DNA of 37,291 nt from Candidatus Zixiibacteriota bacterium. Its GTDB lineage: Bacteria; Zixibacteria; MSB-5A5; DG-27. The position numbers and the translations under genes were made by a program. Positions 12,780 through 18,228 of this stretch are shown here, in pieces (the first letter of the stretch is position 1; the number at the start of each line of letters is the position of its first letter). The stretch spans positions 1 to 37,291 of the forward strand of contig JAUWHO010000032.1 of NCBI GenBank assembly GCA_030605835.1, in the 5' to 3' direction. The notes beneath the pieces were generated by a model. It ran no database searches, was not told the DNA's origin, and saw nothing but the letters and a program-made list of their open reading frames with translations.

Positions 12780-15359
12780 ATGAAACCGTACTACAGCTTA
12801 AACCTGAGTGAGAAAATGAGAAGAAGCGTCAGCCTCTTCTGGTTGATTATTCTCCTTCTCTTGTATGCTGGCACTTATGCCGATGATTTCTCTCCCTACA
12901 GGAATTACCTGGTAAAGGTCGGGATCGATCACCAATTCAGACTCGAGCGTTTGGAAGGCACCGGCTTTCGCTTGCTGACAAGAGATTTTGATTTCGTTTT
13001 GGGCGAGATATTCGCTGAGGACCTTGAGAGCTTAAGGACCATCGGTGTCAGATTCAGAATTCTGGACCAAGACCCGGAGAAAGGAACGTACTACCTCGTT
13101 TACTCGGACAAGGGTAACGTGAGTCTCAAACTCCAACCCTTCCTCGAATTGGTCAAAGTCTTAGATGTTGAAAACAATGTCGCCATAATAAAGGCTTCCC
13201 CGATGATTGCAGAGAGGCTAAGTCTGGAAAGGATGTTCATCCGAAGGGTCGGGAGAGAAACCCTCCCATGGAGGTCGAGACCGGCACCACCTTTCAAGCC
13301 TGTGGAGGTGACAACTGACCCGGTAATAGAGGAAATAATCTCTCAGGTCACGGAATTCTCGGTGGCCAATTTCGATTCGGGTTTATCCGGAGAGTTTGAG
13401 GTTTCTATCGGAGGCGAACCTTACACCCTTTTGACTCGCTATTCCCCGACGGAGGGATGTCTCAAAGCCGGAGAATATCTGGAGGAGAGGTTTGAAGATT
13501 ACGGTCTGGAGACGGAATATGACTACTATTTCTCCGGATATTTGAGGGGGGTTGCGGTTCATACCGACGGGGAACGAGCCTGGGCAGTCTCCCATCTCGA
13601 CCAGATTCTGCGAACCACGGACGGAGGGGATAGTTGGCTTCAGGTTGAAAACGTGTTCAGCCAGGGCTTGTGGTCCGTGGACAATGCTGGATTAGACAGC
13701 GTCTGGGTTGTCGGCTCTCCGGGAATCATTTTAAGGTCAACCAATGGTGGACTGTCATTCCACCAGCAATCTTCCGGGGTTTCGGGATGGCTCTATGACC
13801 TATTCTTCCTCGATTCTAAAAGAGGCTGGGTAGTCGGTGGTGGGGGAGTCATCTTAAAAACCATCAACGGCGGAGAAGATTGGGAGTCACTTTTCTCGGG
13901 GGTGAGCGTGGACCTCCAATCGGTCGTCTTTATTGACACCCTGAACGGTTGGGCTTCCGGACTGGGAGGGACTATCATTCACACCCCTGACGGGGGTGAA
14001 AGCTGGCACATCCAAGATTCCAACAATCGCCAGGGACTTTACGGAATTCAATTCACAGATGAAAACCAGGGTTGGGCAGTGGGAACCAATGGCATGATCT
14101 GTCACACCACCAACGGGGGAGAGAGGTGGGAATTACAAAATTCCGGGACCAACTCCAGACTCTGCGGAATCAACTTCGTAAATTCCCAGGAGGGATGGGT
14201 CGCGGGTTGGAACGGCACTATTTTGCACACCACTAACGGAGGCCTTGATTGGGAGACGCAGAATTCCGGCGTCACCGTCAATCTCTGGGATGTGGAGTTT
14301 ATCGACAGCTCCGAAGGGTGGGTGATCGGTCACAATGTGATTCTCAAAACAACTGACGGTGGTGAGGAATGGCAATCCCAGAAGGAGAACATCGAGGCAG
14401 CGTGGAGAAATGTTGTCGCCACCAAGGTTGGAACCACTTACCCCGATCGGGAGGTCATAATCTGTGCTCATTATGACGCCGTCTCCCAAATCCCCTATCT
14501 GCGAGCTCCCGGCGCCGACGATAATGGTTCCGGCACCACCGCAGTGGAGGAGGCGGCGCGGATTCTGTCGCAATACCCCTTCGAGAACACGCTCAAATTC
14601 ATCGGCTTCTCCGGGGAAGAGCAAGGACTTTTGGGCTCGAAAGCTTACGCTGAGGATGCCTACAATCGGGGCGACAGCATCATGGCGGTTGTGAACTTGG
14701 ATATGATCGCCTACGACAGCGATGATAACTATGCCGGAGAAATCCACTGCGGCACCGATTCCAACTCGATCAATATTGGAGACCTTTTTATGGAAGTTGC
14801 CGCCGAATACCAGCTCCCACTGGTTTTGGAGAAGTTCACTTCAGGAGCGTCAAGAGCCTCTGATCACGCCTCCTTCTGGGACTATGGCTATCCCGCCATT
14901 ATGGGCATTGAGGACAAAAGCGATGATTTCAATCCCCATCTTCACTCCACCGGCGATAATATGTCTATTGTCAACGCCTCCTATTTTGCCGAGTATGTGA
15001 GGGCTGCATTAGCGACGGTGGCAACTCTGGCGGTGCCCGATACACAATTCGTCTCTGTTGAGGATGAGAGCAAATCGGGACTGCCCGTAAGATTCACGCT
15101 GATGCAAAACTATCCCAATCCTTTCAACAGTTCAACAGTGATACCATTTGAGGGTCAAGGAGAGGAGGCCAGGCTGGAGATATTCGATCTTGCTGGCCGG
15201 AAAGTGAAATCCTTCAGGCTGAGCGACCCTTCTGGTGAGGGACAAATAATCTGGGACGGCACCAACGAAACCGGAGAGGAGGTCTCAAGCGGGATATATT
15301 TCTACAGGCTCAGCAGTAGAGATTTTTCCCTGGCAAAAAGGATGGTATTAATCCGATAA
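12780..15359 (+). CDS. Secreted M28-family peptidase with inserted YCF48 propeller and T9SS sorting domain
   Basis: An 859-residue exported protein. A signal peptide covers about residues 14-33. Residues about 190-255 (GLSGEFEVSIGGEPYTLLTRYS ... EYLEERFEDYGL) look like the first part of an M28 peptidase. Seven YCF48/BNR-like repeats follow (about 257-540; each GWxxG...ILxTTxGGxxW). The peptidase then resumes: AHYDA (H564, D566), GADDNGSG (D580), SGEEQG (E613/E614), LDMIAY (D641) and HLHSTGD (H722), which are the zinc ligands and catalytic glutamate of the family. The last 85 residues are a T9SS type A sorting domain (NYPNPFNSST ... SGIYFYRLSS). It is likely an extracellular or surface aminopeptidase. 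GGAAG precedes the ATG; ATG 12816 is an alternative start. Confidence 0.93.
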   Translation: MKPYYSLNLSEKMRRSVSLFWLIILLLLYAGTYADDFSPYRNYLVKVGIDHQFRLERLEGTGFRLLTRDFDFVLGEIFAEDLESLRTIGVRFRILDQDPEKGTYYLVYSDKGNVSLKLQPFLELVKVLDVENNVAIIKASPMIAERLSLERMFIRRVGRETLPWRSRPAPPFKPVEVTTDPVIEEIISQVTEFSVANFDSGLSGEFEVSIGGEPYTLLTRYSPTEGCLKAGEYLEERFEDYGLETEYDYYFSGYLRGVAVHTDGERAWAVSHLDQILRTTDGGDSWLQVENVFSQGLWSVDNAGLDSVWVVGSPGIILRSTNGGLSFHQQSSGVSGWLYDLFFLDSKRGWVVGGGGVILKTINGGEDWESLFSGVSVDLQSVVFIDTLNGWASGLGGTIIHTPDGGESWHIQDSNNRQGLYGIQFTDENQGWAVGTNGMICHTTNGGERWELQNSGTNSRLCGINFVNSQEGWVAGWNGTILHTTNGGLDWETQNSGVTVNLWDVEFIDSSEGWVIGHNVILKTTDGGEEWQSQKENIEAAWRNVVATKVGTTYPDREVIICAHYDAVSQIPYLRAPGADDNGSGTTAVEEAARILSQYPFENTLKFIGFSGEEQGLLGSKAYAEDAYNRGDSIMAVVNLDMIAYDSDDNYAGEIHCGTDSNSINIGDLFMEVAAEYQLPLVLEKFTSGASRASDHASFWDYGYPAIMGIEDKSDDFNPHLHSTGDNMSIVNASYFAEYVRAALATVATLAVPDTQFVSVEDESKSGLPVRFTLMQNYPNPFNSSTVIPFEGQGEEARLEIFDLAGRKVKSFRLSDPSGEGQIIWDGTNETGEEVSSGIYFYRLSSRDFSLAKRMVLIR

Positions 15360-15625: not shown

Positions 15626-17227
15626 ATGTCCAAGCTCAAAAAATTCCTCATGGCCGAAGCCATAAGAGAAGCCTACAGTCGCGGCGAAGAAGAAGAGCAG
15701 ATGGAACCGTTGGTTCTGGTCAACGCGGATGACAGACCCATCGGTCGAATCAACGGTGGCGACTACGTCATCTTCTACAACATTCGTGGGGAACGTGAAG
15801 TTCAGCTTTCAGAGAGTCTTATTGACCCGGATTTCAAGCATTTCCCGGTCGAACCGCCGCCGAAACCCAAGATGGCCACAATGATTCAATACGATAGACA
15901 TCTGGACAAATTCGGAGTGAAAGTCGCTTTCCCGCCTCTGGAGGAGATCAAGGACAGCCTGAGCGAAGTGGTGAGCAAAAACGGCTTGAAGCAGGTCAAG
16001 ATTACAGAATCCGAAAAGGAGGTCCACATCAGTTTTTTCTTCAACGGCAAAAATAAGGAGCCGTTTCCCGCCGAAGACCGAATCAGCATTCCCTCTCCGA
16101 GAGTGAGGAACGTCGATGAGAAGCCGGAGATGAGCATCTCCGAGGTCACAAGAGCCATCGTCGGAAAAATCAATCAGGGGGAACATTCTCTCATCGTTGC
16201 CAACTTCCCCAACCTCGATGTCATCGGCCACACCGAAAACAGGGAGGCGATATTGAAAGCGGTCGAGGCTGTGGACACTCACACCGGGATGGTGGTCGAA
16301 GCCGCTCGAAAGGCCGGAGTGATCACCCTCATCACTTCAGACCACGGAACTGTTGAGAGCTGGCTCTACCCCGAGGGAACCATCGATACCGGACACACCA
16401 AAAGCCCGGTGCATTGCCTCTTGATCGATCCCACCTTGCCGCCATCTTCGAGAGTTTCCCTTAGGGAGGGCGGTGCCCTCACCGACGTCGCTCCCACCAT
16501 ACTTGCTCTTCTGGCGATCCCCAAGCCGGAGGTTATGACCGGCGAGAGTTTGCTCGTCAGCTACCCCAAGTTTGAAAAGGGAAAAAGGCGCCTCCTCCTC
16601 CTGATAACCGATGGCTGGGGCATAACCGATGACGACTACGGCAACCTGATCAAAGCCGCTGACACTCCGGTTATGGACAGCTTCCACGAGCAATATCCTC
16701 TCACCAGCCTGAAGGCCTCCGGCGAAGCCGTCGGGCTTCCGGAGGGGACCGTCGGCAACTCGGAATCCGGACATTCTCACATGGGCTGTGGACGAGTGAT
16801 TTATGCCGACAGAATGAGAATAAAAAAGAGCATCGAGGATGGCTCCTTCTTTCACAACAAGGCCCTCCTCTGGGCGATGAGCAATGCCAAAAAGGAGGAA
16901 AAACCTCTCCACCTCCTGGGGATTGTCTCCTTCTACAGTTCGCACGGGTCGGTCGATTACGCTCTCGCCCTTCTGGAGATGGCCAAAAGAGAAGGGCTGT
17001 CTGAGGTTTACATTCACTCCATGCTGGGACGGCGCGGAGAAAGGCCCGAGACCGGCGCCATCTACACCGAGAAGATCGAGAAAGAGTGTCAGCAACTCGG
17101 TCTGGGGAAGGTGGTCTCGGTGATTGGCAGGTATTATGCGTTAGACCGGGAGGAAAACTGGGATCGCGTGGAGAAGGCCTACCGGCTTTATGTTCACGGC
17201 GAGGGGAGAAAGGTTAAACAGATGTAA
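15626..17227 (+). CDS. Circularly permuted cofactor-independent phosphoglycerate mutase (GpmI-like)
   Basis: The 533-residue protein contains all of GpmI with its halves exchanged. Residues 1-310 match the second half of GpmI: IFYNIRGER (R54, R57), K131, NFPNLDVIGHTEN (D198, H202), SDHGTVE (D239, H240), DTGHTKSPV (H257) and MTGESL, the usual C-terminal end. After a short linker, residues 321-533 match the first half: LLLITDGWG (D329), GNSESGH (S379, the phosphoserine nucleophile), H440, R502/R508 in GRYYALDRE, ending RVEKAYRLYVHGEG. The new termini correspond to neighbouring positions within the canonical transferase domain. GpmI interconverts 3- and 2-phosphoglycerate with two Mn2+. All metal ligands are present, but the canonical SDGGVHSH and DGRDTPP loops read SFYSSHGS and GRRGERP. 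An in-frame TAG directly precedes the ATG, so the start is well bounded. Activity is inferred. Confidence 0.88.
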   Translation: MSKLKKFLMAEAIREAYSRGEEEEQMEPLVLVNADDRPIGRINGGDYVIFYNIRGEREVQLSESLIDPDFKHFPVEPPPKPKMATMIQYDRHLDKFGVKVAFPPLEEIKDSLSEVVSKNGLKQVKITESEKEVHISFFFNGKNKEPFPAEDRISIPSPRVRNVDEKPEMSISEVTRAIVGKINQGEHSLIVANFPNLDVIGHTENREAILKAVEAVDTHTGMVVEAARKAGVITLITSDHGTVESWLYPEGTIDTGHTKSPVHCLLIDPTLPPSSRVSLREGGALTDVAPTILALLAIPKPEVMTGESLLVSYPKFEKGKRRLLLLITDGWGITDDDYGNLIKAADTPVMDSFHEQYPLTSLKASGEAVGLPEGTVGNSESGHSHMGCGRVIYADRMRIKKSIEDGSFFHNKALLWAMSNAKKEEKPLHLLGIVSFYSSHGSVDYALALLEMAKREGLSEVYIHSMLGRRGERPETGAIYTEKIEKECQQLGLGKVVSVIGRYYALDREENWDRVEKAYRLYVHGEGRKVKQM

Positions 17228-17235
17228 CTGACCAT

Positions 17236-17280
17236 CAGAAGGTTTGTCGGGCAAGAATGCCCGACCTATTTATTTTTAAT
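17236..17280 (+). repeat. Dispersed hairpin repeat A, intact copy, also terminator-like
   Basis: A perfect hairpin GTCGGGCA-AGAA-TGCCCGAC at 17246-17265 is followed by CCTATTTATTTTT. It lies nine bases after the permuted GpmI stop and before the convergent EamA gene, so it could terminate transcription. Bases 17236-17270 are shared with the decayed copy at 3700-3734. Confidence 0.75.
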
Positions 17281-17310
17281 AGAATAATCCCCATGGCGGA
17301 GGCCAGGGGG

Positions 17311-18228
17311 CTACCCTGCTCTTGATTCTTCAGATTCTCTGCCGGTGCAAAAAGCCTCGTAACGTTCAGTCCCAAACACCAAGAACACCCCGACAAAAAT
17401 TAGAGCTGCTCCAGCGTATGTCCATGCCGGAGGAACCTCCGCGAAGATGAGAAAGGCCAGAAAGCTCGCCCCCAGCGGCTCTCCTAAGATAGTGGTGGCC
17501 ACAAGGTGGGCCTTGAGGTACTTCAAAATCCAATTGTATAAGGTGTGCCCGATGATTGTGGGCACCAGCGCCAGGAGAACGAACCACAGGAAGGTCAGCT
17601 TGGGATAAGGGTAGAGGGACTCTCCATAGATGACACACAAAACTCCCAGAACAAGTGTCGCCAGAAGATAGACGAAAAAGATATAGGGCAAAAGATTCAT
17701 CCTTTGCCTGACAATCCTTCCACAAAGCATATAAGAGCCGGCGGCGACTGCACCCGCCAATGCCAGCAAATCCCCAAAGAGGTATTCTCGACCCAGACTG
17801 AGATCACCACCAGCGATCAACGCCCCTCCGATTATTGCAGACCCTATCCCCAACAACTGTATTGCTCCTATCCGCTCCTTGAGGAGCAGAAGAGAGAGGA
17901 AGGCTACGAATATCGGCTGCGTCGTCACCAGCACCACGGAGTTCGAAATGGTGGTGTAGAAAAGGGAGGTGAACCACAGCGCAAAATGGATTCCCAGGAG
18001 AAATCCGGACAGGATCGTTAAGGACAATTCACGTTTGCGGATGACCTTCAACTCTGCCAGGAAGGGCGAAAGTGCAAAGGGGGAAAGGAACAGAACCGCG
18101 AATGCCATGCGGTAGAAGGCGGAGACTAATGGCGGTGCTTCGGCCAGGCGGATGAAAATCGCCGCCCAGCTCACCGCCACCACCGCGATGACTAAAGAGA
18201 GGTTTCTCCTTAAGACCTCAGCCTGCAT
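17311..18228 (-). CDS. EamA/DMT-family transporter
   Basis: A 305-residue membrane protein with about ten hydrophobic helices arranged as two EamA repeats. The first repeat includes VVAVSWAAIFIRLAEAPPL and FYTTISNSVVLVTTQPIFVAFLSLLLLKERI; the second includes YMLCGRIV and ATTILGEPLGASFLAFLIFAEVP followed by AGAALIFVGVFLVF. Members export or import amino acids, metabolites or nucleotide sugars; the substrate cannot be assigned. The gene is the last of four codirectional genes (YkgJ-like, membrane protein, PLP enzyme, EamA) spaced 25-79 bases apart. No strong ribosome-binding site precedes its ATG. Confidence 0.9.
   Translation of the reverse strand: MQAEVLRRNLSLVIAVVAVSWAAIFIRLAEAPPLVSAFYRMAFAVLFLSPFALSPFLAELKVIRKRELSLTILSGFLLGIHFALWFTSLFYTTISNSVVLVTTQPIFVAFLSLLLLKERIGAIQLLGIGSAIIGGALIAGGDLSLGREYLFGDLLALAGAVAAGSYMLCGRIVRQRMNLLPYIFFVYLLATLVLGVLCVIYGESLYPYPKLTFLWFVLLALVPTIIGHTLYNWILKYLKAHLVATTILGEPLGASFLAFLIFAEVPPAWTYAGAALIFVGVFLVFGTERYEAFCTGRESEESRAG

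Follow-up and report, generated by a model that had tools for sequence, protein, structure and literature searches.

Cofactor-independent phosphoglycerate mutase (GpmI, iPGM) has the domain order phosphatase-transferase-phosphatase, with the phosphatase domain formed by residues 1–76 and 311–511 and the transferase domain by residues 77–310. In the B. stearothermophilus enzyme, Asp154 reportedly contacts the free hydroxyl of the substrate, and it is a proposed acid/base in the transfer reaction. In the open-access papers that we searched, we found neither a statement of this role nor a description of a circularly permuted iPGM. Paralogues of iPGM have been described as rare (PMC2964296). Here we analyse an iPGM-like CDS of 533 aa with an ATG start at positions 15626–17227 (+ strand) of a window of 37,291 nucleotides, i.e. 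the whole stretch of Candidatus Zixiibacteriota DNA under study. The initial annotation described this CDS as a phosphoglycerate mutase in which the halves of GpmI are swapped in one uninterrupted frame. The circular permutation is almost certainly real, with support from profiles, pairwise alignments, phylogeny and comparative genomics. The identity as a mutase, however, is doubtful given the loss of Asp154 in all 13 permuted proteins readable at this position, a rewritten loop around His123 and the presence of a normal GpmI in 11 of 14 Bacillota hosts. The protein probably belongs to a previously undescribed family of circularly permuted iPGM paralogues.

With GpmI of B. stearothermophilus (PDB 1ejj) as the reference for alignment and canonical numbering, a phmmer search against the PDB matched residues 11–311 of the ORF (15656–16558, + strand) to canonical residues 218–510 (i-E 9e-64) and residues 320–528 (16583–17209, + strand) to canonical residues 3–211 (i-E 4e-55). 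The two matches are collinear, non-overlapping and swapped, so that practically all of GpmI is covered; the expectation that the halves would represent complementary parts of the enzyme was thus confirmed. According to phmmer, residue alignment and tblastn, the first stretch comprises transferase part 2 followed by phosphatase part 2 with the Mn ligands D198, H202, D239, H240 and H257, and the second comprises phosphatase part 1 (D329, S379) followed by transferase part 1. Between them, phmmer and the comparison with relatives define a junction linker, SYPKFEKG (residues 312–319; 16559–16582, + strand), that connects the former C-terminus with the former N-terminus, while the new termini correspond to the canonical stretch around residues 212–217. 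All PDB matches of the ORF in phmmer were cofactor-independent phosphoglycerate mutases. The Pfam model Metalloenzyme is split into two stretches, iPGM_N positions 1–131 align to ORF residues 399–529 with the remaining positions 125–216 at the start of the ORF, and the NCBIfam models are split in the same way. Searches by tblastn with two canonical proteins placed the breakpoints at 16558 and 16577–16583, the same as phmmer, and revealed no GpmI remnants in other parts of the window. The resulting domain order of the ORF is transferase-phosphatase-transferase. As initially annotated, the permuted protein would have a contiguous phosphatase domain and a transferase domain in two parts, which is consistent with the alignment and the generally accepted domain limits.

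Modeling of the protein in its native order with AlphaFold2 gave a mean pLDDT of 83 and a pTM of 0.77 with 11 sequences (a run with 8 sequences was poorer, with a pLDDT of 65). The junction region at residues 310–330 was predicted with a pLDDT of about 79–91. All 22 PDB matches of this model with E < 0.001 in Foldseek are iPGMs. They align over approximately 282 columns each with a TM of ~0.45, which alone is no proof of the global fold; matches spanning about half of the chain are expected when a sequential aligner faces a permutation. A structure search of BFVD returned no significant match.

The permuted proteins are not a one-off but a scattered, probably rare family, present in at least 14 bacterial genomes besides that of the window. 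All remaining GpmI matches in the window's phylum (133 genomes searched) are canonical. The search of related genomes proposed in the initial annotation found the swapped order in 14 Bacillota genomes, which together with the window's genome makes 15 carriers in all. A scan of named genomes yielded one relative, in Butyricicoccus pullicaecorum (L041), and alignment showed that it has the swapped order with the same breakpoints as the window's protein. Full-length matches in permuted order were present in 3 of 87 genomes of the family of Butyricicoccus, the one of G187 in two pieces. An order-level search of 394 genomes returned only the query genome G133, and a phylum-level sample of Bacillota contained the permuted gene in 12 of 399 genomes, G133 included. 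The permuted copy of G842 is cut by a contig end. In G187 (L114:8211–9494), an apparent frameshift near residue 410, due to decay or sequencing error, leaves frames of 428 and 121 aa. Among viral contigs, plasmids and phages, searches yielded either no relative or two-piece matches that read as canonical. The same-genus genome G001, which is 52% complete, matched in short repeats only, with no counterpart of the gene or of the sequence around it, and is therefore uninformative.

Comparison of up to 14 permuted proteins (13 readable at some positions) with 64 canonical ones allowed a closer look at the active site. Both metal sites and the phosphoserine are intact: canonical D12, D403, H407, D444, H445, H462 and S62 correspond to D329, D198, H202, D239, H240, H257 and S379 of the window's protein and are kept in 14 of 14 permuted proteins. 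The substrate residues, among them the Arg/Lys that bind phosphate and carboxylate, are retained as well: canonical H123, R153, R185, R191, R261, R264 and K336 correspond to H440, R470, R502, R508, R54, R57 and K131 and are kept in every permuted member readable there. The initial annotation had listed all of these equivalents except R470, and each of them proved correct by alignment. Its further statement that the protein has lost nothing essential is not upheld. Canonical GVHS around His123 is rewritten to SSHG (residues 438–441; 16937–16948, + strand), which is present in 14/14 permuted and 0/64 canonical proteins, and canonical DGRD aligns with GRRG (residues 468–471; 17027–17038, + strand), placing Gly471 at the position of Asp154. 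All 64 canonical proteins have Asp at position 154, in contrast to Ser in 12 and Gly in one of the 13 permuted proteins. The latter is the window's protein, in which D151, G152 and D154 are replaced by G468, R469 and G471, and which is the sole member with both Gly154 and altered D151/G152. In addition, Ser334 (14/14) and Leu189 (13/13) are common to the permuted proteins and neither state is the canonical consensus; V122, S124, T334, M189 and D154 are the states of 64/64 canonical proteins. With the metal and phosphoserine residues kept and Asp154 lost, the protein should still be able to form the phosphoserine, and a difference would be expected in the return transfer or in the substrate. 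Ser or Gly at position 154 would make room for a second phosphate.

For phylogenetic analysis, 14 permuted proteins were rotated into canonical order, with G187 left out for its frameshift, and combined with canonical proteins of the window's phylum, Bacillota, Proteobacteria and Bacteroidota. In the maximum-likelihood trees, a branch with a support of 100/99 separates all 14 permuted proteins from the canonical ones. Holding the window's protein with the canonical GpmI of its own phylum was rejected (p-AU 0.005), as was a second canonical placement (p-AU 0.0006), the usual caution applying to these tests as the protein forms a long branch without close relative. Tree, AU test and shared residues support the view that the permuted proteins are monophyletic and would have a single origin. 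In the simplest route, gpmI would have undergone a single in-frame tandem duplication/fusion and then have lost the outer halves. Six pairs of permuted proteins from Bacillota gave dN/dS values of 0.05–0.18, indicative of purifying selection among these Bacillota members.

An assembly or binning chimera at 15626–17227 is virtually inconceivable, although the assembly is a draft of 53 contigs and the permuted form occurs in one genome only within the window's phylum. The ORF lies in the interior of a 37-kb contig, its G+C content resembles that of its neighbours, and identical order and breakpoints are found in 14 independent Bacillota genomes. A misassembly at the junction, which the initial annotation had named as the event that could overturn its reading, is therefore excluded in practice. 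The permuted relatives in Bacillota also rule out a one-off event. It is likewise very unlikely that the window's lineage acquired the permutation independently and merely converged with the Bacillota family. Such an origin could account for the long branch and for the canonical states E231, N259, W195 and D299 that the window's protein has kept, but it would have to explain the identical breakpoints, the SSHG, S334, L189 and RG[ED]R common to the window's and the Bacillota proteins, and the outcome of both the monophyly and the AU analysis.

As to function, we consider it reasonably probable that the protein is a neofunctionalised permuted iPGM paralogue from a monophyletic, undescribed family that acts on a putative phosphoglycerate-like substrate. 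It would adopt an iPGM-like two-domain fold and employ a metal-activated phosphoserine intermediate as in iPGM. The residue with the proposed hydroxyl-handling role is gone and a normal phosphoglycerate mutase usually coexists, so the reaction is probably not the glycolytic 2-PG/3-PG mutation. Instead, phosphate is probably transferred to, or hydrolyzed from, another phosphoglycerate-like compound. The main rival is an ordinary phosphoglycerate mutase for which the swap is neutral and the loss of Asp154 is compensated, serving as a backup for 2-PG/3-PG interconversion; we regard this as possible but unlikely. It would agree with the retention of all metal ligands, the phosphoserine, His123, R153, R185, R191, R261, R264 and K336, and with the score of the ORF against the equivalog model TIGR01307 (487.5 in two stretches, cut-off 330.65). 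Furthermore, no canonical GpmI was found in G693, G951, G619 or the window's genome (G000), so that a contribution of the permuted protein to glycolysis is still conceivable in these genomes. On the other hand, Asp154 is found in 64/64 canonical and 0/13 permuted proteins, canonical GpmI accompanies the permuted gene in 11 of 14 Bacillota carriers, the window's genome encodes an ApgM above the curated cut-off, and the stricter NCBIfam model NF003897 scores far below its cut-off (399.9 versus 862). A catalytically dead or regulatory pseudoenzyme is quite improbable: key residues of the transferase domain are altered, most of all in the window's copy (D151/G152/D154 to G/R/G), and the Bacillota copy of G187 is apparently frameshifted, but all permuted proteins retain the metal-site ligands and the phosphoserine, under purifying selection, and the gene can reside in an operon with metabolic genes.

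The genomic setting of some relatives offers a more specific version of the favoured reading as a neofunctionalised paralogue. In clade A, the permuted gene closes a cluster that starts with a GntR/UTRA regulator and continues with a cyclic-2,3-diphosphoglycerate synthetase (cDPGS) homologue (8ork match, E 1e-133) and then with the PhnS2-like binding protein, the fused permease and the ATPase of an ABC importer that is PhnS2/U2/T2-like (phosphonate-type). This order is complete in G606, G693, G619 and G819. It lacks the regulator in G951, where the contig begins at the synthetase. In G842, permease and ATPase adjoin the permuted gene and the synthetase lies on another contig, whereas in G795 the ATPase adjoins and no synthetase was found. 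An operon of GntR/UTRA regulator, cDPGS homologue and phosphonate-type ABC importer was noted in Bacillota at L105:2031–9715 and likewise at L102, L103, L104 and L109. Homologues of cDPGS occur in 6 of 15 carriers versus 0 of 39 comparison genomes, but the link is confined to one subclade whose members are not independent. Given the position beside the cDPGS homologue and the importer, a good candidate for the substrate of clade A is 2,3-bisphosphoglycerate or some related compound that is imported. The extended proposal that permuted iPGMs synthesize or degrade a compound of the 2,3-bisphosphoglycerate type, with clade A, its cDPGS homologue and importer forming part of a (cyclic) diphosphoglycerate pathway, is rather doubtful. 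The solute cDPG is reported from hyperthermophilic methanogens only (PMC10690619).

Other carriers have different neighbours. A phosphohexomutase gene adjoins the permuted gene in three of the four genomes of clade B (G810, G705, G735, G632), and in Butyricicoccus and relatives HAD hydrolases are located upstream. None of the clade A, clade B or Butyricicoccus-type neighbours was found beside the window's gene. Upstream lies the gene of a large peptidase of the M28 family (12780–15359) that carries YCF48/BNR repeats and a C-terminal sorting domain of the secretion type, and downstream a convergent EamA transporter. Just 3' of the permuted gene, an intergenic repeat (17234–17320) has the inverted repeat GTCGGGCAAGAATGCCCGAC as its core, and similar copies exist at three places in G001, the best with 83% identity over 87 bases. 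The window's genome lacks the partner genes of clade A; its only cDPGS-like match is a 449-aa frame (L115) with weak partial similarity to cDPG synthetase at G000:C30:115281–115655 (E 2e-6; 0.003 versus 9sxb), possibly a remote relative of this enzyme.

When an enzyme with several domains that close on each other is permuted in nature, the outcome is a clean evolutionary experiment in which the two domains exchange the roles of host and insert. Since the permuted form has also given up an active-site residue that is otherwise invariant, it may reveal how the iPGM scaffold was put to a new use. In clade A, the operon opens the function to direct testing. Automatic annotation would name the permuted proteins GpmI since they score above the cut-off of TIGR01307, and a glycolytic phosphoglycerate mutase could be wrongly assigned in genomes without the canonical gene. 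Among related systems, ApgM (the archaeal-type iPGM) belongs to the same AlkP-type metalloenzyme superfamily but is shorter and unpermuted, and the permuted protein reaches 19.7 bits with TIGR00306 compared to a cut-off of 320. The ApgM relative PhpG, defined by an NCBIfam model, provides a precedent for an enzyme of the phosphoglycerate mutase family with another transfer reaction. The phosphopentomutase DeoB, encoded by a separate gene in the window's genome (L003), shares the superfamily and the phosphatase core, but its cap domain differs and its order is canonical. The closest system is GpmI/iPGM itself (TIGR01307; PDB 1ejj, 1o98, 4my4), with ~40–43% identity to each half and with both domains, the metal ligands, the phosphoserine and the listed substrate residues in common. 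In contrast to GpmI, the permuted form has swapped halves, no Asp154 and SSHG in place of GVHS, and it is usually a second copy in the genome.
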